This document shows, piece by piece, positions 3,970 to 45,186 of a stretch of DNA of 47,287 nucleotides. The position numbers and the translations under genes were made by a program. Below the pieces are notes generated by a model. It made no database searches and had not been told where the DNA came from. It was given only the letters and a program-made list of their open reading frames with translations. The stretch's first letter is position 1; each line of letters begins with the position of its first letter. The DNA is from Blastopirellula sp. (lineage in GTDB: Bacteria; Planctomycetota; Planctomycetia; Pirellulales; Pirellulaceae), in assembly GCA_002701545.1 (NCBI GenBank), contig NZVR01000126.1:105665-152951 (forward strand), written 5' to 3'.

Positions 3970-3992
3970 CGTAAATGCGAACAACGGAAGTG

Positions 3993-4021
3993 ATTGTGCG
4001 ATGAACTCCAGGGAGTGTCAA
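3993..4021 (-). promoter_or_regulatory. sigma70-type promoter for the murE-like operon
   Basis: On the minus strand TTGACA (4021-4016) is followed after exactly 17 nt by CACAAT (3998-3993). This is a perfect -35 box and a 4/6 -10 box. It lies about 87 nt upstream of the chosen ATG at 3906 and in the only spacer that could serve the operon. Confidence 0.55.
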
Positions 4022-4103
4022 CCTGAGAATCATGGCGGATGGTGAATCGCTTCACTGCTGTCACTGCATCCACGTGGCAGATTGATATTGACGACGAGCG
4101 ACA

Positions 4104-4130
4104 TTGACGCCTGCGACCTGACACGATACT
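4104..4130 (+). promoter_or_regulatory. possible promoter for the FlgI-like lipoprotein gene
   Basis: TTGACG (4104-4109) is followed after 15 nt by GATACT (4125-4130). The short spacer makes this weak, but it points towards the FlgI-like gene and lies about 110 nt before its start. Confidence 0.25.
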
Positions 4131-4239
4131 GTCCGCACCGATCTTGTCTCGTTATCAGTCATTCGGGTTGTCACAAAGGCAACTCGAGTGGCCCTTCGGT
4201 CAGGCCCCGGTCGCTGGCCAGGCGATGGAGTTTTGGGAA

Positions 4240-6069
4240 ATGAAATCTTTGCACGTTGTATCGCGAAGTCTGACACTGTTAGCCGTTTTCTGTGTGGGCT
4301 TTTTAGGCCTGATGACAGGATGCCAATCTTCGTTCTTTCGCGCTCAGAGCCCGGATTCGACGGAGGCATTGGTGGAGGACGAAGTTGCCGCAAATCTTGT
4401 TGGCAAGTGGGCGCTGCCGACTGGGTTGAACGGCCAGAAGGTGGAGTTTATCGGACTCGTGAATGGGCTGGCTGGAACCGGTAGCGATCCTCCCCCGACC
4501 CCGGATCGTCAAGCTTTAATTGATGACATTCAAACTTATGACGTGGATCATCCTAATGAGATCCTCTCTTGGAATTCCACCGCCATGGTGCAAGTCACGG
4601 GAATCATCCCTCCGGGAGCACAGAAGGGCGATCGCTTCGACGTCCTGGTCCGCACACCGCGGCGGTCGGAAACGGAAAGTTTGCGAGGCGGTTGGTTGAT
4701 GCCCACACGCCTTCGTGAGCATGCGGTGATCAATGGCTCCACACGCTCGAGTTTGCAACTCGCGATGGCCACCGGCTCGGTCTTGGTGGATTCAATGTTC
4801 GAAGGGTCTGATGATGAAATGTTAGAACGTCGAGGACGCGTGCTTGGTGGTGGCGTGGTCGGAAAAACACGGCCCCTCGGGTTGGCCGTTCGCTCTGAAA
4901 AAGGCAGCATCACCGTCAGTACGTTGATTGGCAAGGCAATCAATCGCCGCTTCCATCGGTTTGAGCACGGTATCAAGAAAGGGGTCGCTACACCCAAACG
5001 CGACAACTATATCGAGTTGGCTGTGCACTCGCGTTATCGCAATAACTTGTCGCGTTACCTGCGTGTGGTGCGCGCGATCCCACTTCGTCAAAACAGTATC
5101 GAGATGCCGGTACGGCTGGAGCGTTTGGAACGCCAATTGTTGGATCCGAACAGCGCCGCCAAAGCTGCCATTATGCTGGAGGCGATTGGCCCCGAGGCGA
5201 TTCCTACTCTTCAGCGTGGTGCCGTCTCAGAAGATCCGGAAGTCAAGTTCTATTCGGCTGAGGCGCTGGCTTACTTGGACGTTGAGGAAGCGGCGAAACC
5301 TCTGTCGGAAGCAACGGTTGAACCGGCATTCCGCTGGCACGCATTGACCGCCTTGGCAGCCATGGACCAGGTTGCTGCGTATGACGAGTTGACCGAACTC
5401 TTACAAGCCAACAGTGCGGAAACGCGTTACGGTGCGTTTTATGCTCTGCGAACGCGGAATCCCAGCGACCCGCTGGTCACAGGCGAACGATTGGGAGACG
5501 ATTACTTCTACCACGTGGTGCCATCGGTTGGCGAACCGCTGGTACATTTCACACGTTACAAGCGACCTGAGGTTGTTGTCTTCGGCCACCAGATTGATGT
5601 GCGACCCCCGAAGTACTTGTTTGCGGGTGAAAACATCCTGATCAAGGGAACCGAAACGGGCGAATTGAAAGTGTCCCGTTTTCAAGCTGGCGATGGCGAA
5701 GATCGCCACGAGATTTGTCCGGCTGATTTGAATTCCATGATCCGTGCCATCGAACAACTCGGTGGCGGGTATGCGGAGGTGATGGAAGCAATTCACGCAG
5801 CGAAAAAACAGGGTGACTTGCAAGCTCGTGTGGTCGTGGACGCCATTCCGCGGACGCGACGCAGGTACGAGCGAAACGCGGATGCGGATGTGTCGGAGGA
5901 AAGCGAGAGTCCTCATTTCCAGTCGGCAAACCCAATCCCTGAAATGTTTTCGAATAAATTAGATGAAGAAGAAAACAAGAAAGAAGGTCAGAAACGCCCG
6001 CGGTTAGAAGAGGATGGATCCTCTGAGGGCGGCTTCCTGAGTACAATGGGTGAGTGGTTCGGTCGCTGA
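4240..6069 (+). CDS. lipoprotein with FlgI (P-ring)-like region and HEAT-like repeats
   Basis: The protein is 609 residues. The ATG at 4240 has GGAG 9 nt upstream and begins a lipoprotein signal ending in LMTGC, so the mature protein is probably anchored in a membrane by its Cys. Residues about 60-220 resemble the flagellar P-ring protein FlgI: GLVNGLAGTGSD matches the GLVVGLNGTGD signature, followed by PPGAQKGDRFDVLV and SLRGGWLMPT, which match the conserved core. Residues about 290-440 are Ala/Leu-rich HEAT-like repeats (for example AIMLEAIGPEAIPTL). The C-terminus is Glu/Lys/Ser-rich and charged. No flagellar gene is visible nearby. I infer a structural or envelope protein derived from the FlgI fold rather than a true flagellar ring; annotation as FlgI would be misleading. 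Confidence 0.75.
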   Translation: MKSLHVVSRSLTLLAVFCVGFLGLMTGCQSSFFRAQSPDSTEALVEDEVAANLVGKWALPTGLNGQKVEFIGLVNGLAGTGSDPPPTPDRQALIDDIQTYDVDHPNEILSWNSTAMVQVTGIIPPGAQKGDRFDVLVRTPRRSETESLRGGWLMPTRLREHAVINGSTRSSLQLAMATGSVLVDSMFEGSDDEMLERRGRVLGGGVVGKTRPLGLAVRSEKGSITVSTLIGKAINRRFHRFEHGIKKGVATPKRDNYIELAVHSRYRNNLSRYLRVVRAIPLRQNSIEMPVRLERLERQLLDPNSAAKAAIMLEAIGPEAIPTLQRGAVSEDPEVKFYSAEALAYLDVEEAAKPLSEATVEPAFRWHALTALAAMDQVAAYDELTELLQANSAETRYGAFYALRTRNPSDPLVTGERLGDDYFYHVVPSVGEPLVHFTRYKRPEVVVFGHQIDVRPPKYLFAGENILIKGTETGELKVSRFQAGDGEDRHEICPADLNSMIRAIEQLGGGYAEVMEAIHAAKKQGDLQARVVVDAIPRTRRRYERNADADVSEESESPHFQSANPIPEMFSNKLDEEENKKEGQKRPRLEEDGSSEGGFLSTMGEWFGR

Positions 6070-6168
6070 ATCTGACATGCCAACCTGTAATTGACCGAAC
6101 CCGATGACTGCGCGACCGCCGTCGTCAACCTGGTCTAATTCCCGCTGTCCCCTGCCCCACCAAATGCC

Positions 6169-9100
6169 ATGCTCAAAGCACTTGAATTGAGTGGCTTCAA
6201 GAGCTTCGCTGACAAAACTCGTTTCGAGTTTCCAGCGGGGATCACTGTGGTGGTTGGTCCCAACGGTTCGGGTAAGTCGAACGTTGTGGATGCGATCAAA
6301 TGGGTGCTTGGCGAGCAGAGTGCCAAAAGCCTCCGCGGCAAGGACATGGCGGATGTGATCTTTAAGGGCTCTGGGGGGAGTGGCCGCAAACCACTCAATA
6401 CGGCTCAGGCCACCATTGTTTTTGACAATTCGGAAAATCGTCTGGCGATTGATTCCCCCGAAGTTCATGTCACGCGACGCGTCTTTCGCAGCGGTGAGGG
6501 CGAGTATCTCATCAACGAGGAACCGTGTCGCCTGAAAGACATTAAAGACTTGTTTCGGGGTACGGGAGTCGGCACTGACGCCTATAGCCTGATCGAACAA
6601 GGCAAGGTGGATCGGCTGCTGCAGGCTTCGCCTAAAGACCGACGAGCCATCTTTGAAGAAGCGGCCGGGATCAGCCGCTTCAAGGCAAAAAAAATTGAGG
6701 CTCAACGCCGTTTGGCGCGTGTTGAGCAAAACTTGCTGCGACTATCGGATATCGTCGACGAAGTAGAAAATCGTTTTCGCAGCGTGCGCAATCAAGCGGG
6801 TAAAGCGAAGAGATATCGTGAATACAGCGGGCGTCTGAAGGACCTGCGCACGCAAGTTGGGTTGACCGATTGGCGTCGCTTGACCCAGGAACTCACCTCG
6901 CTGACGGAGGAATTGGAGCAACTTCGCCAAACACAGGAACTTGCCACGCAGGAGCATCGGCAATGGGAGGCGGAGGCAGACGAGCTGGAATCACAAGTCG
7001 GTGCCGCGCATGCTCAGATCCGTTCGCAAGAGACGGTGGCATCCAAAAACCGCGAGCAAATCGCAAGTTTGGAATCGTCGATTCACCATGAGCGTTCCAC
7101 TCAGCAAGAATTTACTCGCCAGGAAAATCGCTACCGCAATCAACTAAGTGCCATGACGACGCGCGCCGGAGACTTGCAACAGCGAGTGCAAGTCACTGCG
7201 GAGTCGCTGGCAACTGCCGAACACGAGCATGCCGAAGTTTCTCAGGGACTCGCCGCGGCGGAAGAGGCGATGCAGACGCTCGACACAGAGCTCCAGCAGT
7301 TGCGGGCGACGCTCAAGTCGCGACGCGCCGAGCACGTCCAGCTACTGCAAACCTCCGCTCGCTACAGCAATGATGTTGCTGCCTTGGAATCCCAGGTCGA
7401 ATCGCTGGATAAGTCTGCCGACGATGCGCGGCAACAATTGGGGGATGTTGAGGCGGCAGTTGCGCAGGTTCAGGAAGAGATCGCTGCTTCCAACGCGTCT
7501 GAGTCGACTCTGGCGAAACAGCAGGCCGCGAAAACCGAAGCCCTGAACGCGGCAAGTGAGAAACTTGATGAGACGCGTCGGCTCGTGTCCCGCAAGCAAG
7601 AGGAACTTGCTGCGCAACAGTCGCGTCACAGCGCTGTCTCTGAACGTACCACCTTGCTGGCTGAACTGGAGCGTCGTCAGGAAGGAATCAGCGAAGGCGT
7701 TTCTCAATTGCTAGAGCAGGCGCGTCACGCCACGACGGGCGCTTTGCGAGATATCTGCGGATTAGTTGCCGACGTCATTCAGGTGGATTTGGAAAATGCG
7801 CCGATGGTTGATGCGGCACTCGGGTTGTCCGCTCAGTGTGTCATCGTGGATGGCAGCGAGCTGATGGCTGCTTTGAAATCAGGTAGCTTTAAAGCGAGTG
7901 GGCGGATTGGTTTTATTGCCACCCAACAGGAACGGCGAGGTGGACTTCCCGACCCGGGGCCGTTGCGCGATGTTCCGGGGGTGATTAGCCGCGTCGACGA
8001 AATGATCGAGACGGTACCCGCTTACGAGTCGCTGATGCAGCACTTGTTGGACACGACTTGGGCTGTGGAGTCGCTGCAACTTGCATTCGAATTGGCAGAC
8101 CAATACCCGACCTTGCGTTTTGTTACCGTTGCGGGCGAAGTGGTGGACACGAACGGAACGATCCTGGTTGGACCTCGCAGGACCTCCACCGGATTGGTGT
8201 CTCGACGCAGTGAATTGCGCGCGCTGCAACGTGAAAAAGCTGTGATGGAAGAACGTATTCGCGAGGCGCATGCCGAAATCGATCGCCTCAAGCTGAATAC
8301 GGAACAGCAGGAAGCGGGCTGCAAGAAACTGCAGGATGAACGGCAGCAAGCGAACGAATTACTGTCCGATCAGCGCGTCACGTCACGCACGCTGCTAGAT
8401 CGCTCGCAGCAATTGGATACGCAACAGTCCCGGCTGCGCACCGAACTGGAAGAATATCAGCAGCAGCGAGAAGCCGCGGCCGAGCAAGTCGGGACCGTGC
8501 AGGATCAACTGAAAAGCTCCCAGAGTCGTTTGGCGGAAGTCGAGCAGTTTCTCGGCGACCATGACAAGCAACTTGCCGGTATTGATGGACGGCGACAGCA
8601 GCAGAATCAAGTGGTCACGGCGGCACGCATCGAAGTCGTCAAAAGCGAGCAGATGGTCGATGGCTTGCGGGCCCGACTGCTGCAGTTCCAGGAAGACAAA
8701 CGAGAACGAGATCGCACGCTGCAGCAAGTGCATGCTCAGCTTGACGATGCGACGGAACGGATCCGGCAGTCAGAGCGCAGCATTCTGCAAGCCACCAGCG
8801 ATTTGGCTTCAGCGTACTTGCTCAAAGAACAGCTGGCGGACGCGATTCATACTGAAACCGTTGCCAATGAAGAACTGCTGGTCAAACGGAAGGAGCTGTT
8901 GCGACAGGCGGAGGCGGCGCGGCAACGTATTCGGAAAACAGATGAGACGCTGCATGCGCGCGAATTAGCAGCAGGTCAAATCGGTCACAAAAGAGAGTCG
9001 CTCGCGGAACGGATGCGTGATGATTATGGTATCGAACTCGCACGCGAAGCGGAGGACTCGACTGAGCCGATCGAGGCACGCGAAGAGATTGAAAGTGAGA

Positions 9101-38996: not shown

Positions 38997-39962
38997 TCAT
39001 GCTGACGGTGCCGAAACCGCAACCGAGGTGCGCCGGGTGGCGATATCCGCGAGCCACTCGGCCACAGAGCGTTCGAGATCTTTGCTTAGTTCTCGCCACC
39101 TGGGCAGGCTCGTGTTCAAGGCGTGTCCGCCAGCAAATTGGAGTTGCACCCATTGAGCCACAATCAGCTTGAGACCACGAAACGTCGGCAGATGGCCAAC
39201 ACGATTGCCGATTGCGGTCTGATAGGCTTCGAGGAAGTGTTTTGCCGCTGGTGAATCCCATCCCAGGGAATCGAGCATGGTAGCGATATCCCATCGCGGG
39301 TCACCAACCGCAAGTTCTTCCCAATCCATGAGTGTCGGATTTCCACAATCGTCAACGATCACGTTGCCAGCGTGAAAGTCGCCATGCAACACCTGTGAGG
39401 TGTACTCGATCTTCTCAGAGGTTTCCGCTGCAACTTGTAATGCGATTTTGGTCAGCGGATTCTGTAACTCATGTGACCATTCACTCAAGCGGTCCAGTAG
39501 CCACTCCAGGTTCGCATTTCCGGCGGTGTGTGTGGGCGGAGGTGCTGCGGACTGGTGAAGGGACGCCAGTGCTCGGGCAGTGGTTTATAGTGCGTTGGGC
39601 ACATGTCGCTGGCGTCTCAGGGAATTGCCGGCAATGTACTGAAGTAGCGACGCTTTTCCCAAGGGAGTCTCTCGCGCAGATAATAACTTTGGCACGACCA
39701 CGCCGGCCGACGCAGCATGGCGCAAACCGAGCCATTCCCGTGCGGCCAGATCCGCGGTCTCTTGGCACCACCAAGACAACGTGCCGCGATACATGCGCAG
39801 GATCACCTGACGGGGAATCGACGCATCAGGAGACGTGATGCCAAGGCATTCGACGTGATGATGAAAACTGGAATATGGCAAGCGTTGATGGACGGTCAAC
39901 GCGTGAGTTTGGTAGACGTCACGCAACCAGGATGTTAACTCGGCACTCGTGTACGTTTTCAT
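38997..39962 (-). pseudogene. aminoglycoside-phosphotransferase-fold kinase interrupted by one in-frame stop
   Basis: Two reading-frame pieces in the same frame form one kinase of about 321 codons. The N-terminal piece (from ATG 39962) ends at TAA (39587-39585). The frame then continues with TTARALASLHQ, a normal linker, into the catalytic half. That half has the Brenner-type motif LHGDFHAGNVIV and the metal-binding Asp in LMDWEELAVGDPRWD. No frame change is needed, so one nonsense codon (CAA to TAA would do it) breaks the gene. A GTG at 40022 is a possible earlier start. The family phosphorylates small hydroxyl compounds such as aminoglycosides, choline or homoserine; the substrate is unknown. 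It lies 37 nt downstream of the dioxygenase gene. Readthrough or a sequencing error are alternatives. Confidence 0.8.
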
Positions 39963-39999
39963 TGTGACTTGGTGCCCACAGTCATCCTCGGTCCGACAA

Positions 40000-40824
40000 T
40001 TACGTCCACTGCGCGTTACCACTCTCGTACGCGTACTCGGACTTCAACGCTGCTAGAGCAAACAGATGTTGTAAGTCAAGAGGGACCTGCTTGAGATCTT
40101 GCTGACCGATTTCAATCTGATAGTTCGCAGGGAAATTGACGTAGTCGCGAAACCAAGGACGACTGTAAACAAAATACAGCACGGGACGATCTTCTGTTTG
40201 TCGAACCTCTGTGCCTCCGTGCCACACACGATAGTCCATCAATAAGCAATCACCGAGTGAGCTTGAAACATGACTGGCCCCTTGGGAGAGAGCCTGATCC
40301 TCGGGAAGACGATGAGATCCTTCCCAGACGCGCGTCGTACCCGTTTCTCGGCTCATGCTCACGAGCGGTAGCAAGACGGTGACGGCGTACGCTGGCAAGT
40401 CGTTGGAGTGCTGGTCGTCGTCGAATAGCTGCGGGTGGTCAAGATGGACGTGCTGCGCTCGGGCACCCGGTTCAGCGATGACTGCGCCAAAGCTGTTGAG
40501 CACAAACGACTCCCCAAGCAACCTCGTGAGAATGCGTAGCACAAGTGGATTGGCATAAAGATGAGGCGCGTTGAAGGGATATTCGATCGGCAAAGATAGC
40601 ATCATCCGCCGATTGCCGACTCGCTTTGCCTGAGTCGCATGCAAATCATCAGTGGCTCGACGGCGAACTGCCTGCCTGGCAACACTCAGATGCGCTTCCG
40701 AATACGCGCCGCGCAATACGAGTGCACCGTGTTCCTGGAACTGATGACAAGCCTGATCCAACGTCGCGCGATTCCACCGCTGATGTTCGATTTCTTCCGG
40801 TGTCGGATTGATTTGTGATTGCAT
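40000..40824 (-). CDS. phytanoyl-CoA dioxygenase (PhyH) family protein
   Basis: The 274-residue protein belongs to the Fe(II)/2-oxoglutarate-dependent PhyH family, which hydroxylates lipids, amino acids or natural-product scaffolds. The first two metal ligands are in HVHLDHPQLF (HxD), the distal histidine in YRVWHGGTEV, and the 2-oxoglutarate-binding arginine in EDRPVLYFVYSRPWF. All are present, so it is probably active. The ATG at 40824 gives MQSQINPTPEEIEHQRW; a TTG at 40860 is an alternative. The kinase gene follows on the same strand, suggesting that the two modified one substrate. Confidence 0.87.
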   Translation of the reverse strand: MQSQINPTPEEIEHQRWNRATLDQACHQFQEHGALVLRGAYSEAHLSVARQAVRRRATDDLHATQAKRVGNRRMMLSLPIEYPFNAPHLYANPLVLRILTRLLGESFVLNSFGAVIAEPGARAQHVHLDHPQLFDDDQHSNDLPAYAVTVLLPLVSMSRETGTTRVWEGSHRLPEDQALSQGASHVSSSLGDCLLMDYRVWHGGTEVRQTEDRPVLYFVYSRPWFRDYVNFPANYQIEIGQQDLKQVPLDLQHLFALAALKSEYAYESGNAQWT

Positions 40825-41534
40825 TGGTTTCAGCAGACTGCACGCTGCCGCTGGGGTCAATAAATGCTCGGATCAAGGGGGCCCGTCAATGTCCCAGTCG
40901 CTGTTGGGAACGCTTGTTATTACAGGGGCGTTGAGGCCAGAGGCGATCAAGCAATGTTCAGTCAGTGGAGCCTTGAAGTATTCTCCGCTCATGGGTGGAG
41001 AGGCACCCCATGGAGAAGTGGGGTTGCAAGTATCGCGCCATTCCCGAATCGGTTGCCTTTGAAGTGTAAACGCTTGCCTGCGGATGGACCGTTCCAGAGC
41101 AAAGCTCTGATCGAGTGACGCAGGTGAACTACCTCGGTGGTGTGCTACCGGAGGGAACCTAAATGAGAAGAGAGGGTTAGTTTTTATGCCGACAAACCCA
41201 CTTCACCCTGTGCCGACACCCTTGTGTTTGTCTCGTCTGTGGAAATCGCGGCAAGCGAAACAGCTAGATTTTTTTCCGCAAGCACTCAGGTAAAGTCGCT
41301 GGCGGGGCGGTAATAATTGCTTTCCTGGACCTCTCGGCTGTAAATAGTTCTGCCTTCCGGCCGATGGATGTGACACCTGGGTAAAGAGGGGTGTTTGGCT
41401 CGGCGCAAGAGAGTAAGTTTTTGACAACGACGAACGTCACTGTTGGCGGCAGCCGAATTTGTACCCGGCGTTCTTTGTTGACTGGAACGGCATTTGCGTC
41501 AAAGCCCGCGGAACAAAACCCGCTTTTTTCTTGT
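40825..41534. other. long non-coding stretch upstream of the modification cassette
   Basis: No convincing gene lies in these 710 nt. Two inverted-repeat zones are visible: one near 40991-41022 (CATGGG pairing with CCCATG, extendable with bulges) and the structured element at 41077-41155, listed separately. A TTGACA at 41421-41426 has no matching -10 box. Confidence 0.5.
41077..41165 (+). promoter_or_regulatory. structured leader with hairpin-sequestered Shine-Dalgarno
   Basis: CCTGCG (41077-41082) pairs with CGCAGG (41119-41124), enclosing a perfect 6-bp hairpin CAGAGC-AAA-GCTCTG (41095-41109). A second hairpin pairs 41132-41140 with 41145-41154 (loop TGTG, one bulged G). Its 3' arm contains GGAGG, followed 8 nt later by an ATG (41163) and a stop after five codons (MRREG). 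The pieces GCAAA and GACGCA resemble the GEMM-I (c-di-GMP) motif, but the rest does not fit well. It looks like a cis-regulatory RNA; the class is unknown. Confidence 0.35.
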
Positions 41535-41849
41535 ATGAATGCTCGTCCTATGTCGGAAAGTGGTTTGGCGAGGAATTCAGGTGACTCCTCAGATACTCAA
41601 TTTGAGCAATTAGCTCAGCGCGCCCGGGCGATGGATCGCCGTAGCGTTCTGAAAGCTGGCCAAGCCCTGGCGTTTATTACTCCAGCGATCGCGGTCTATG
41701 GAGTCCCGCGACGTGCTCTTGGTCAAACCGGTTCAGGTACCTCGGCGCCGTTGTTGGGCCCCGATACGTTTGGGGCCCAGGGAGCCATTTCGGGTAAGGC
41801 CAAAGGTAAGGGGAAGACCGCCGGCAAAGGCAAGGGCAAAGGGAAATGA
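41535..41849 (+). CDS. small Tat-signal protein with Gly/Lys-repeat tail (putative modification substrate)
   Basis: The 104-residue product has three parts. The first 32 residues are polar. Then comes a twin-arginine-like signal, MDRRSVLKAGQALAF followed by ITPAIAVYGVPRRALGQ, so export is plausible. After a short Ser/Gly/Leu stretch the protein ends in GKAKGKGKTAGKGKGKGK, a pure Gly/Lys repeat with one Thr and two Ala. I do not recognise a family. No good Shine-Dalgarno is visible, and internal ATGs at 41550 and 41634 are alternative starts. The PqqD-like gene begins 115 nt downstream on the same strand. Because PqqD-like proteins bind leader peptides, I infer that this is the substrate of the downstream enzymes, but nothing in the sequence proves it. 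Confidence 0.65.
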   Translation: MNARPMSESGLARNSGDSSDTQFEQLAQRARAMDRRSVLKAGQALAFITPAIAVYGVPRRALGQTGSGTSAPLLGPDTFGAQGAISGKAKGKGKTAGKGKGKGK

Positions 41850-41964
41850 AGTTCGTGAGCTGAGTGGGGTGCGATCGGCTGATGTGTTGGAATGTCAGTT
41901 GAGCGGATGCACCCGCTTGGATGATGATGAGTTCCCACGCACGAGGACTCAAGTGCGTCTAGCA

Positions 41965-42273
41965 ATGAGTAATACGATCGTGATCAACACCAATCATTCC
42001 TTTGATATTTCACGTGCTTATCGCCTGAGTGAAAGACTGCTCTTAAAAGAAGACGGGACGGATCTACTGGCGTTTGACCCAGATTCGTTATCCGTTCATC
42101 AGCTGAACAGTTCGATGGCACGTATCGCTCGGCTATGTCAACAAAGTGCCTCTTGTGAAGAGATGGTAATCAATTTTGTTGAGACTTACGGTCTGGAATA
42201 TGAGGAAGCCGCTGGCACTGTCCTGCAGGCTTTGCGGGTTTTGGATCAACATGAAATGATCGTTAGCGAATGA
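41965..42273 (+). CDS. PqqD-like peptide-binding protein
   Basis: The 102-residue protein matches the PqqD-like winged-helix fold that serves as a leader-peptide recognition element (RRE) for peptide-modifying enzymes. Seen: RLSERLLLKEDGTDLLAFDPDS, then SVHQLNSSMARIARLCQQ, then SCEEMVINFVETYG and VLQALRVLDQHEMIVSE. These are the helix-strand segments of the family, with the typical LN.s...i..lC and eEm...f..Y patterns. The ATG at 41965 is used here, but a GTG at 41953 has GAGGA 5 nt upstream and may be the true start. The stop overlaps the kinase-like gene's start (ATGA at 42270). It resembles the PqqD members of HPr-kinase-associated systems. Confidence 0.8.
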   Translation: MSNTIVINTNHSFDISRAYRLSERLLLKEDGTDLLAFDPDSLSVHQLNSSMARIARLCQQSASCEEMVINFVETYGLEYEEAAGTVLQALRVLDQHEMIVSE

Positions 42274-43094
42274 ATGCCCCGCATCGACTGCAATTGCAAC
42301 TGCGAGAAAGCCGTGTGGAATTCACGGCAGAGCGGCTTGAATTGCTGACGGTCGTAGGCCATATCTACAAGCCGTTTGTGGTCGGTGACTTCGAGCATGC
42401 ACTGCCCGATTTGAACACTGTCCGAGATGGTGTTGGTTGGCATTTCTCGATCAATGGGCGGGAAATGAACTGCTCACGATTTGATTTTGCTCTGCGTGAG
42501 ATTGAAGACATCATTGCACGTTGCCTTTTGCGAGCTCGCAAAGACTGCTTGCCGCTACATGCTGGCGCAGTACTGTCGGCGACCAATCAAATTGTCCTTG
42601 TGATCGGTCCCTCGGGTTCAGGGAAGACGACGACCTCATTGGAGCTCGTTCGTCGTGGGATGAGTTATCTGACCGATGAATTTGCGGCGATTGACAAGGC
42701 CACCACTTGTATTTTTCCTTTCCCGCGAAGTGCCACACGTAAGTTCGCTGGTCCAATCCCCGAGGGTGAAAATCTCGTCATTCCGCAGGAGCAGGATTAT
42801 CGATCTCATTACTTGCCGCGCAACCGCACCTCGTTGTCTCCGCAGGATCTGAGTCATTGTTCCTTAATATTTTCTCGGCATGATCAAACCGCTGATCCGT
42901 GTGTGACGCCGTTATCTTCCGCCCAAGTATGCGCTCGGATGATGCCTTCGGTCTTTGGTTTTGAGGGACGTGAACAGGACCATTGGCCGACGATTTCGCA
43001 ACTTGCCCCCCACGCCACGGCGATTGATTTCAGATTTCGAGACGCGTCAACGGATCTCAATCTGGCACTTCGGGAATTAGGACTAGCGGCATGA
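42270..43094 (+). CDS. HPr-kinase-related protein
   Basis: The 274-residue protein resembles the HprK-like kinases that accompany PqqD-like proteins. The Walker A is GPSGSGKTTTSLELV (about 113-127), preceded by CLPLHAGAVLS and a strand IVLVIG. LTDEFAAID follows, at the position of the conserved acidic pair of HPr kinases. The N-terminal 100 residues and the C-terminal half are diverged. True HprK phosphorylates a serine of the carrier protein HPr; no HPr is encoded here, so the target could be the Gly/Lys protein (its Ser residues) or another protein. Start and stop overlap both neighbours by ATGA, so expression is coupled. Confidence 0.8.
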   Translation: MNAPHRLQLQLRESRVEFTAERLELLTVVGHIYKPFVVGDFEHALPDLNTVRDGVGWHFSINGREMNCSRFDFALREIEDIIARCLLRARKDCLPLHAGAVLSATNQIVLVIGPSGSGKTTTSLELVRRGMSYLTDEFAAIDKATTCIFPFPRSATRKFAGPIPEGENLVIPQEQDYRSHYLPRNRTSLSPQDLSHCSLIFSRHDQTADPCVTPLSSAQVCARMMPSVFGFEGREQDHWPTISQLAPHATAIDFRFRDASTDLNLALRELGLAA

Positions 43095-44239
43095 GCGACT
43101 ACGACAACCGCATTCTCAATGATGCCGATCGAATTCAGGCTTTTGCACGAGCGATACGGCGTCAAGTCAGTACGCAAGATGTCGTTGTCGACCTTGGCAC
43201 CGGTCTCGGAACTTACGCCATGTTGGCAGCTCAAGCGGGCGCGAAACGTTCCATTGGCATCGAGTTCGATTCGATCATCAATGTGGCACGCCAGATTGCA
43301 TTACAGAACAATCTCGATGTTGAGTTTATCCGTGGAGACGCTCTTGATGTTGAGTTGTCGGAGCGTGCGACCTTGCTCATCTTTGAAGATTTCTCATCCG
43401 GATTGTTGGATGGTCCTGCTCCGCCGCTGTTGGCTGCTGCACGAAAGCAATTGGTCGCGCCATCGTGTCGCATACTTCCCCAAGGGGCCGAGCTAGAAAT
43501 CGCTCCTGTTGCCAGTCAGCGAGCACACGACATGGCGTTCCCCAATCGGGCGGACGATTACACTTGCTACGGTCTGAATTTTCAACCGCTGCAGTATATT
43601 ACTCAGAACAGTGTCCATCACATCAGAAGCCCCGAAGATCTTGCGCTTCTGGCAGATCCAGTCGTCGTGCTGCGTCATTCTTTTGAAGAAGATTTGCCGC
43701 AAAAGTGGGCTGCCGATGTCACCTTCGAACTGGCAGCCGAGCAGACGCTTGCCGGTGTGTGTTTGTGGCATAATCTGGTGGTGGACGAGCAGAATCGTTA
43801 TTCCAACGCACCCGGTGAGGCGGCGATCGGGGGACAGTATTTCTTTGCCATACCAGAAGTGTGGGATGTGAAGCCAGGTCAGCGTCTCCGCTGCGAAGTC
43901 GCATTTCAGCGAATCAGTGTGGATGGCTTCTGGCGTTGGAATCTACAGCTTTTTGAGCACCAGTCTGAAACGGCGTGCCGCACGTCGACGGGTAACACGT
44001 TTGCTGCCAGTCCGATTACCTCGGCGGCGATGAACGCGTTCTACCAAGACGAAGTGATCAGCTTGACCTCTCGAGCGAAACTGGAAGCGCTGGTTTTGTC
44101 GGCCGCAGATGGCAACAAGAGCATTCGTGAGATACACGAAATCCTCCAGGAACACGCACCCGAGATGCATGAGGACTCGCTTGAGTTCGTATTGGGAGTA
44201 CTTGAAAATCGACGACTCGCTACAGCAGTCGTCAATTAA
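43091..44239 (+). CDS. PRMT-like methyltransferase with PqqD-like C-terminal domain
   Basis: The 382-residue protein has a class I SAM-binding fold: VDLGTGLGTYAMLAAQAGAKRSIGIEFD (motif I and the acidic residue binding ribose). The next segment, LLIFEDFSSGLLDG, then LLAAARKQLV, CRILPQGAELEIAPV, follows the layout of protein arginine methyltransferases. Their double-Glu loop is here E...D. A beta-barrel-like region follows (about 160-300). The last 70 residues (KLEALVLSAADGNKSIREIHEIL, LEFVLGVLENRRLA) look like a PqqD-type winged helix. The enzyme probably methylates a protein or peptide. The Gly/Lys tail of the neighbouring small protein is the obvious candidate, by analogy with Gly/Arg-rich PRMT substrates. 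Its start overlaps the kinase-like gene by ATGA. Confidence 0.78.
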   Translation: MSDYDNRILNDADRIQAFARAIRRQVSTQDVVVDLGTGLGTYAMLAAQAGAKRSIGIEFDSIINVARQIALQNNLDVEFIRGDALDVELSERATLLIFEDFSSGLLDGPAPPLLAAARKQLVAPSCRILPQGAELEIAPVASQRAHDMAFPNRADDYTCYGLNFQPLQYITQNSVHHIRSPEDLALLADPVVVLRHSFEEDLPQKWAADVTFELAAEQTLAGVCLWHNLVVDEQNRYSNAPGEAAIGGQYFFAIPEVWDVKPGQRLRCEVAFQRISVDGFWRWNLQLFEHQSETACRTSTGNTFAASPITSAAMNAFYQDEVISLTSRAKLEALVLSAADGNKSIREIHEILQEHAPEMHEDSLEFVLGVLENRRLATAVVN

Positions 44240-44314
44240 GGCAAATAACGACGGACCCGTGTTTGTTGCGAGGTAATCAGGAAGCACCTCGCACCCAACC
44301 GCTTTGGAGAGCGC

Positions 44315-44557
44315 ATGAGCATCATTAAACTCGAGGAAAAACTGGATTTTACTGAGAATGCAATTCGTGAAAATGTAAACGCTACGATCTCGCAACTTCA
44401 GCGAGACCGGGTGGACACATTGTCAATGGATGACCTTTATCGTCGCACATCCACTCAGGGAGTGGTTTGTCCAGAGCATGTCTATCGCCCGATGTTTGAA
44501 CGGATTGCTCGACAAGTTTGTCTCAAGCGATCCTTTTCCATCGTGCGAGGCGAGTGA
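44315..44557 (+). CDS. small orphan protein downstream of the modification operon
   Basis: An 80-residue protein that I do not recognise. It is mainly helical and charged (KLEEKLDFTENAIRENV, TISQLQRDRVDTL, DDLYRR) and has two Cys (VVCPEH, RQVCLK). GGAG 5 nt before the ATG supports expression. It lies 75 nt after the methyltransferase on the same strand, so it may belong to the same transcript and could be a second substrate or an accessory factor. It has no signal peptide or membrane segment. Confidence 0.55.
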   Translation: MSIIKLEEKLDFTENAIRENVNATISQLQRDRVDTLSMDDLYRRTSTQGVVCPEHVYRPMFERIARQVCLKRSFSIVRGE

Positions 44558-45186
44558 GTACGACGTGTGTCATCCCGCACCGTCCCGGGAAGCCACGCCG
44601 TCTCGGGAAGCCACGCCGTCTCGGGAAGGGCGTCGCCATCGCCGGGAACTATTCTGGCACGGCCTGCTGTCGCCAACCACATCGCCTTCAGGGCAGCTTT
44701 CCACGACGGCGAGCAGATCAGTGTCAGCAATCGATCCACACCTGTTTGTTCCTTCCTGATGCCAGGTGCGTGGCCGGGAATCCAAGGCGGCGTCGAAGTC
44801 CTGCCACGAAAACGTCTCGGAAACTTCGACGGCGATTTCTCTGGAGTTCAAGTAAGCCGCGATCATCTGAGCCAGAAGTTGACTTTCCGGTGTGGTTGAC
44901 ATGAACATGATCGACAAACTTTCAGCAGCGGGGCTCAAGGCATCTGCGTGGCCAGTAACGCTTACCTTGATTCAGCGCGCGATAAAATGCAATGCGCGTC
45001 GTGGCCGAGATTTCAGAGGCTTTGTGCCGGCGATTCAGCATGACGCGGACACGCCATCACCCGGGATCGTGAATTTGCCAGATGATGAGTTAGCAAGCCA
45101 TTGCTGGCGAAGGTCAGATTCGCATTTTCCTGGGCACAGGCGAACCGCCACGTCCGCGCCGCAATGAGATTGAGCTTGCCGTTGAA
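44558..45186. other. 629-nt spacer with no clear gene
   Basis: Apart from the 18-nt repeats (listed separately), I see no supported gene. A 110-residue frame on the minus strand (44570-44902; MSTTPESQLLAQMIAAYL) has some coding character in its first 60 residues but runs into the repeats and has no Shine-Dalgarno. It could be a decayed or lineage-specific gene. Confidence 0.4.
44580..44630. repeat. 18-nt tandem repeat, nearly three copies
   Basis: CCGTCCCGGGAAGCCACG (44580-44597) is followed by CCGTCTCGGGAAGCCACG (44598-44615) and a third partial copy to about 44630. It begins 22 nt after the orphan gene. One frame would read SREATP repeated. Confidence 0.6.

Follow-up and report, generated by a model that had tools for sequence, protein, structure and literature searches.

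The 47,287-nucleotide window analysed here (contig NZVR01000126.1 of Blastopirellula sp., Planctomycetota, from the 7.8 Mb assembly GCA_002701545.1) contains five open reading frames (ORFs), all on the forward strand, that had been proposed from the sequence alone to form a protein-modification cassette; a reading-frame listing confirmed all five at the positions given in this original prediction. The first (41535-41849; 104 residues from Met1) encodes a small protein with a twin-arginine translocation (Tat)-like leader, the proposed substrate, which is present in the ORF list and has counterparts beside HprK genes elsewhere. It is followed by genes for a PqqD-like protein (41965-42273) that constitutes a discrete RRE, i.e. 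the recognition element of ribosomally synthesised and post-translationally modified peptide (RiPP) pathways, for an HprK-like P-loop kinase (42270-43094) and for a methyltransferase resembling the protein arginine methyltransferases (PRMTs; 43091-44239), with an orphan ORF of 80 residues (44315-44557), a candidate cassette member, present after the methyltransferase gene as described. The PqqD-, HprK- and PRMT-like genes are joined, as originally read, by two ATGA overlaps (42270-42273 and 43091-43094). The small-protein gene lies on the same strand, separated from the PqqD-like gene by a gap of 115 nt and not overlapping the operon.

The leader core of the small protein (residues 35-52; 41637-41690) comprises a twin-arginine motif, RRSVLK, and then FITPAI, an assignment that draws on the sequence, motif enrichment, RRE covariation and a known RRE motif (PMC13381572). 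In overall plan the protein consists of DRRSVLK, a hydrophobic stretch ALAFITPAIAVYGV and a cleavage-like RALGQ (all three recognised by eye only), a Ser/Thr-rich stretch and finally a Gly/Lys tail, GKAKGKGKTAGKGKGKGK (41793-41846). The predicted Tat-like signal and GK tail can accordingly be seen in the sequence, but the predicted length of 104 residues would fall to 72 if translation began at an alternative Met33 (41631), which also yields a Tat-like protein, and the true start (Met1 or Met33) is uncertain. No NCBIfam family matches the protein, and its relatives score slightly below the TAT cut-off. The tail is encoded by mixed codons (GGT, GGG and GGC for Gly; AAG and AAA for Lys), which argues that it is maintained at the protein level and not by DNA slippage. 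Thr95 is its sole Ser/Thr, so that the Ser/Thr cluster immediately following the leader may be phosphorylated instead.

The identity of the PqqD-like protein is backed by a Pfam PF05402 score of 24.4 bits, just above the gathering cut-off of 23.4; the nearest family is the HPr-rel-A PqqD family TIGR04353, for which the score of 29.1 bits is below the cut-off of 35. Alignment places it within the PqqD/RRE fold, with the LN retained and the helix-3 Asp replaced by Thr: Asn48 is kept at the position of Asn33 in LppB, and Thr85 stands at that of Asp70. The only other PqqD match in the source genome (L076) was rejected as a related component, belonging as it does to an unrelated membrane metalloprotease/efflux protein.

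A motif of the form [Y/W]xxPx[L/V/I/F/A] is bound by the RREs of lasso peptide, pyrroloquinoline quinone and linear polyphosphorylated peptide (LPP) pathways, and in LPP the RRE Asp70 hydrogen-bonds the leader Tyr and Asn33 holds the kink (PMC13381572). Nearly all other leaders of the form [Y/W/F]xxPx[I/L/V] begin the motif with Tyr or Trp; that of the window begins it with Phe (FITPAI). Within the Planctomycetota set, the RRE residue at the Asp70 position is Asp for 23 of the 24 Tyr/Trp leaders, and all Phe leaders (the window and four loci of one other family, with FAEPKL or FTEPKL) pair with an RRE Thr or Ser (p=8e-6, uncorrected for relatedness; L103, whose PqqD alignment is ambiguous at the key position, was excluded from the count). 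Further pairs are Val with His (L100), Tyr with Asp (L158) and Trp with Asp (L108). The RRE acceptor is thus lost exactly where the leader Tyr hydroxyl is lost, as expected for a true leader-RRE pair, and the combination of Phe leader with non-Asp RRE arose separately in the other family. We regard this covariation as strong, not conclusive, evidence of leader-RRE pairing, and the window PqqD-like protein probably binds the FITPAI leader. One Planctomycetota family (L145, L148, L149, L153 and L155) has doubled-motif leaders (FAEPKLTFIEPKLTKHGDATKIT) beside HprK, with Ser, not Asp, in its RREs.

The kinase retains the features of the HPr kinase fold, i.e. the upstream His97, the sequence GPSGSGKTT with Walker A at G113-K119, and Asp136-Glu137, and is a distant relative of HprK_rel_A, in keeping with the HprK-like ATPase originally described. 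Its closest relative found, 36% identical over the full length, is in G295 (JAJRYU010000784.1, Planctomycetota), beside a nucleotidyltransferase-like gene; a scan of genome contigs recovered this locus alone. A scan of viral contigs with the window kinase gave no match, and plasmid searches with the methyltransferase and with a relative's kinase gave none either.

For the methyltransferase, a search of the PDB matches the S-adenosylmethionine (SAM) domain to PRMTs at E 1e-10 (PRMT4/6/1), which upholds the PRMT relation. The SAM motif and E99 are kept; at the two loops that mark protein arginine methyltransferases, however, the enzyme departs from the family, the second Glu of the double-E loop being Gly108 and the His of the THW loop being absent. 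Neither residue survives in any of the nine cassette enzymes with a C-terminal domain, nearly all of which preserve the SAM-binding motif, whereas most Planctomycetota homologues without HprK retain the two. With these residues lost, arginine methylation by the cassette methyltransferases appears doubtful, and the METHYLTRANSFERASE, judged by the residues it carries, is not a normal PRMT. The C-terminal, winged-helix-like domain is present as predicted, but its likeness to PqqD is weak and confined to the helical half (hhalign 30%, E 5e-4). In a phylogenetic tree the enzymes of G258, G178, G196 and G108 form a group with that of the window (support 97/94; a long-branch warning applies).

A different arrangement is found at L120 (G116; 3976-6340), where the order is PRMT, Tat-leader protein with an Arg-rich tail, and HprK, and where the enzyme retains the double-E and THW residues and has no C-terminal domain; this row of genes may specify a bacterial arginine-methylated peptide. 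Among the degenerate cassettes, most of the substrate tails that could be identified contain Lys. An intact PRMT with an Arg-rich tail, set against degenerate PRMTs with Lys-containing tails, suggests from these few cases a change of acceptor.

Across 392 genomes of the phylum, methyltransferase homologues occur in 33 and kinase-profile matches in 75. Nine cassettes from seven families, whose flanks were read, combine HprK and PRMT-like genes (the window, G178, G196, G108, G258, G309, G208, G246 and G188), and a PqqD-like gene lies near most of them, the G196 contig ending before any. A small Tat-leader protein is encoded immediately downstream of the methyltransferase gene in G178, G196, G108 and G258 (SASKRDFLKKTALLGVYIGPVIRTFEMAEITGKPTGPPEDKKKKPPTG and SRRDFLKKALRTTAYTVPLVTAMSMRSFAAAKPSKPPMDMGMGMG are examples from methyltransferase cassettes). 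In G309, G208 and G246 the leader of the small protein is of lasso type, YxxPxLxxxGxxxxxT, and a gene for an AsnB cyclase is present; G188 has AsnB with a B2-type transglutaminase-like gene. Since both types of small protein occur in these cassettes, the methyltransferase family appears to serve two peptide classes through one recognition motif. The lasso-like clusters with HprK and a PRMT-like enzyme (L095 in G188, L087 in G208, L089 in G246 and L082 in G309) are possible sources of methylated, phosphorylated lasso peptides.

Tat-leader small proteins also adjoin many HprK/PqqD loci of HPr-rel-A type that have no methyltransferase; one of these loci (G563; SRRGFFKKVTYVAPLILTLKVTPARASNGSGG...HRRRRHRNHHNGQGRG) comes from the family to which the window belongs. 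Of the 1334 small ORFs on the HprK strand, 22 carry a twin-arginine leader with [Y/W/F]xxPx[I/L/V]; the opposite strand gives 1 of 1873 and control loci 0 of 1024, and in loci outside the motif definition the counts were 12/1040 versus 0/1487 (p=2e-5). With the first position left free (xxxPx[ILV]), the residues found there on the HprK strand were mainly Tyr (21) and Trp (3), both of which were missing from the opposite strand. The small protein is therefore likely to be a substrate recognised by the PqqD-like protein through its leader, as originally suggested, given these recurrent neighbours together with the RRE motif and the covariation. A survey for the gene set and for GK-tailed neighbours had been proposed as a check; the cassettes and the Tat-leader proteins do recur, but the GK tail is not conserved. 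Tails among the relatives include GK, GMGMGMG, CxPC, Asp-rich and Arg/His-rich types, varying without limit, so that the GK tail is one of a variable set and not a conserved element. At L110 (1942-2592) and L117 (6329-6942), Tat-leader genes whose Cys/Pro tails are of CxPCxP type occur in tandem, two or three together, beside HprK/PqqD, and at L039 (6437-7183) and L041 (5649-6398) HPr-rel-A/Tat-peptide loci directly follow polysaccharide-export-type genes, which may be compared with the LPP clusters in capsule loci of Bacilli.

With moderate confidence, we propose that the locus is a compact RRE-guided peptide-modification operon acting on a small Tat-type protein, which would then be exported. 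Gene order, gene families, the leader motif, its recurrence, the RRE covariation and the catalytic changes in the methyltransferase form the sequence basis of this proposal, from which we infer leader binding, phosphorylation and methylation, the residues that accept them, export and a biological role. The PqqD-like protein would bind FITPAI and hand the leader-bound small protein to the kinase, which would phosphorylate one or more Ser/Thr, and to the PRMT-derived enzyme, which would methylate it, the tail lysines being the likeliest acceptors. Tat exports proteins already completed in the cytoplasm; a leader that doubles as a twin-arginine signal would fit this order, with modification in the cytoplasm, export by Tat and trimming at the ALG-Q region. 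What is released at the cell surface may then be a Gly/Lys peptide that is cationic and bears both phosphate and methyl groups. Three points modify the earlier reading: the GK tail is not conserved, arginine-type chemistry is doubtful, and within the tail Thr95 alone is available for phosphorylation.

Several observations weigh against the proposed operon. Only two or three independent lineages underlie the leader-RRE covariation, the tails of relatives are highly variable with no conservation of the GK tail, and the kinase lies far below the NCBIfam cut-off (44.4 bits for HprK_rel_A/TIGR04352, against 200). AlphaFold models were too poor for use (mean pLDDT 37 for the methyltransferase from one sequence and 43 for the kinase from two), the locus is sporadic, nearly all of the 240 genomes of the family that were searched lacking the methyltransferase and the kinase, and inspection of the window showed neither a nucleotidyltransferase nor a dedicated protease or exporter. 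Were the chemistry closer to that of LPP, the kinase would polyphosphorylate a single Ser/Thr just after the leader (TGSGTS), and the PRMT-like protein would be an O- or carboxyl-methyltransferase or a binding scaffold, not an N-methyltransferase. The catalytic Glu and THW His lost from every cassette methyltransferase with a C-terminal domain agree with such a scheme, as do LppK, which adds several phosphates to one Ser near the cleavage site, and the lasso kinases, which target one C-terminal Ser; the SAM-binding motif kept in nearly all cassette enzymes and the Lys of most degenerate-cassette tails do not, and we consider this scheme unlikely.

We think it quite improbable that the small protein is nothing more than a basic protein exported by Tat, in a coincidental neighbourhood, with the PqqD-, HprK- and PRMT-like proteins acting on some other target such as a cell-surface polysaccharide or another peptide. 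Polysaccharide-export genes do adjoin some HPr-rel-A loci, and the 115 nt gap makes the peptide gene and the operon candidates for separate transcription, yet coincidence sits poorly with the leader-RRE covariation, with the RRE-type motif and with an enrichment beside HprK that is strand-specific. A decayed lasso-peptide cluster, stripped of cyclase and leader peptidase, could be imagined from the occurrence of the same methyltransferase family in clusters where AsnB-type cyclases accompany lasso-like leaders (L082, L087, L089) and, in L095, alongside a B2-type peptidase; it seems very improbable for a locus whose genes are intact, which encodes no AsnB or nucleotidyltransferase relative, and whose Tat-leader class is widespread in the absence of cyclase or B2. 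Assignment to a lasso cluster was likewise rejected, no cyclase (AsnB) relative being found in the window. Beyond the proposed operon itself, we tentatively suggest a phylum-wide RiPP-like class in which one N-terminal segment would serve as both RRE leader and Tat signal ahead of hypervariable repetitive tails, and of which one branch may have recruited a PRMT-derived methyltransferase, devoid of the arginine-handling residues and with a gained RRE-like domain, for the lysines of phosphorylated peptides.

Of the surrounding features, the 80-residue orphan has coding-like composition with gene-like codon-position GC content, and no relatives of it were found in Pfam, NCBIfam and homologue searches; a short tandem repeat (CCGTCTCGGGAAGCCACG-like) lies just 3' of it at 44585-44640. 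On the reverse strand, an APH-family phosphotransferase (38997-40022) seems split into two frames (39585-40022 and 38997-39488, only the latter with a Pfam match), which suggests a frameshift or an assembly error, and it adjoins a PhyH dioxygenase gene (40000-40860).

The original view that no system with this combination had been described is too strong, as an RRE with an HprK-like kinase is known to act on linear peptides in LPP (Bacillota, Nat Commun 2026; PMC13381572) and on a lasso precursor in paeninodin (PMC8498205); HprK homologues are thus known to phosphorylate precursors of both kinds. With LPP the window shares a discrete RRE beside an HprK-like kinase, a linear precursor, the absence of a macrolactam cyclase and, as a class, the combination of a [Y/W]xxPx[LVIFA] leader with a highly variable C-terminus. 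Unlike LPP, it has a twin-arginine leader and an added PRMT-like enzyme, and of the LPP leader YxxPxVLxHQxIxFETxxS it has FITPAI only, with no HQxIxFET; the window holds no NTP_transf relative corresponding to the LPP-type nucleotidyltransferase, and no gene for an archaeal-type signal peptidase was seen on inspection of its ORFs of at least 200 residues. Paeninodin-type pathways share the RRE and HprK homologue, and the methyltransferase family also occurs in lasso-like clusters of Planctomycetota, but the window precursor has neither a C-terminal Ser nor a lasso core, and AsnB cyclase and B2 peptidase were not seen, no B2-like gene being noticed in the window ORF lists, on which the B2 profile was not run.

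The pairing of PqqD-like and HprK-related genes is common to the HPr-rel-A system (TIGR04352/TIGR04353), whose relatives also carry NTP_transf_5 (PF14907), whereas the window has an added methyltransferase and no nucleotidyltransferase, and both its proteins fall under the curated cut-offs. With type I PRMTs the window enzyme shares the SAM-binding fold and motif order, differing in the missing second double-E Glu and THW His and in the extra C-terminal domain. Bufferins, MNIO-modified RiPPs with signal peptides (PMC12452194), offer a parallel to the proposed small protein as export-signal peptides that reportedly undergo modification in the cytoplasm; the enzymes involved are entirely different.

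A full-text literature search, whose coverage leaves out many subscription papers, found no earlier Tat-leader RiPP, and no PRMT-like partner in RRE/HprK pathways was found described in a similarly incomplete set of papers; from what could be found, a Tat-type leader carrying the RRE motif and a PRMT-derived partner are apparently new. If correct, the proposal would extend RRE- and HprK-dependent linear-phosphopeptide pathways from Bacillota to Planctomycetota, a phylum with little-studied peptide products, would provide a case of a RiPP leader that is also an export signal, and draws attention to a bacterial enzyme of PRMT fold departed from arginine chemistry; leader-RRE covariation also offers a direct and inexpensive way of testing, in metagenomic genomes, how substrates are paired. 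Falling outside LPP proper and not being a lasso cluster, the window pathway is, on its gene content and leader, best filed as a variant among the LPP/paeninodin-type RRE-guided phosphopeptide pathways.

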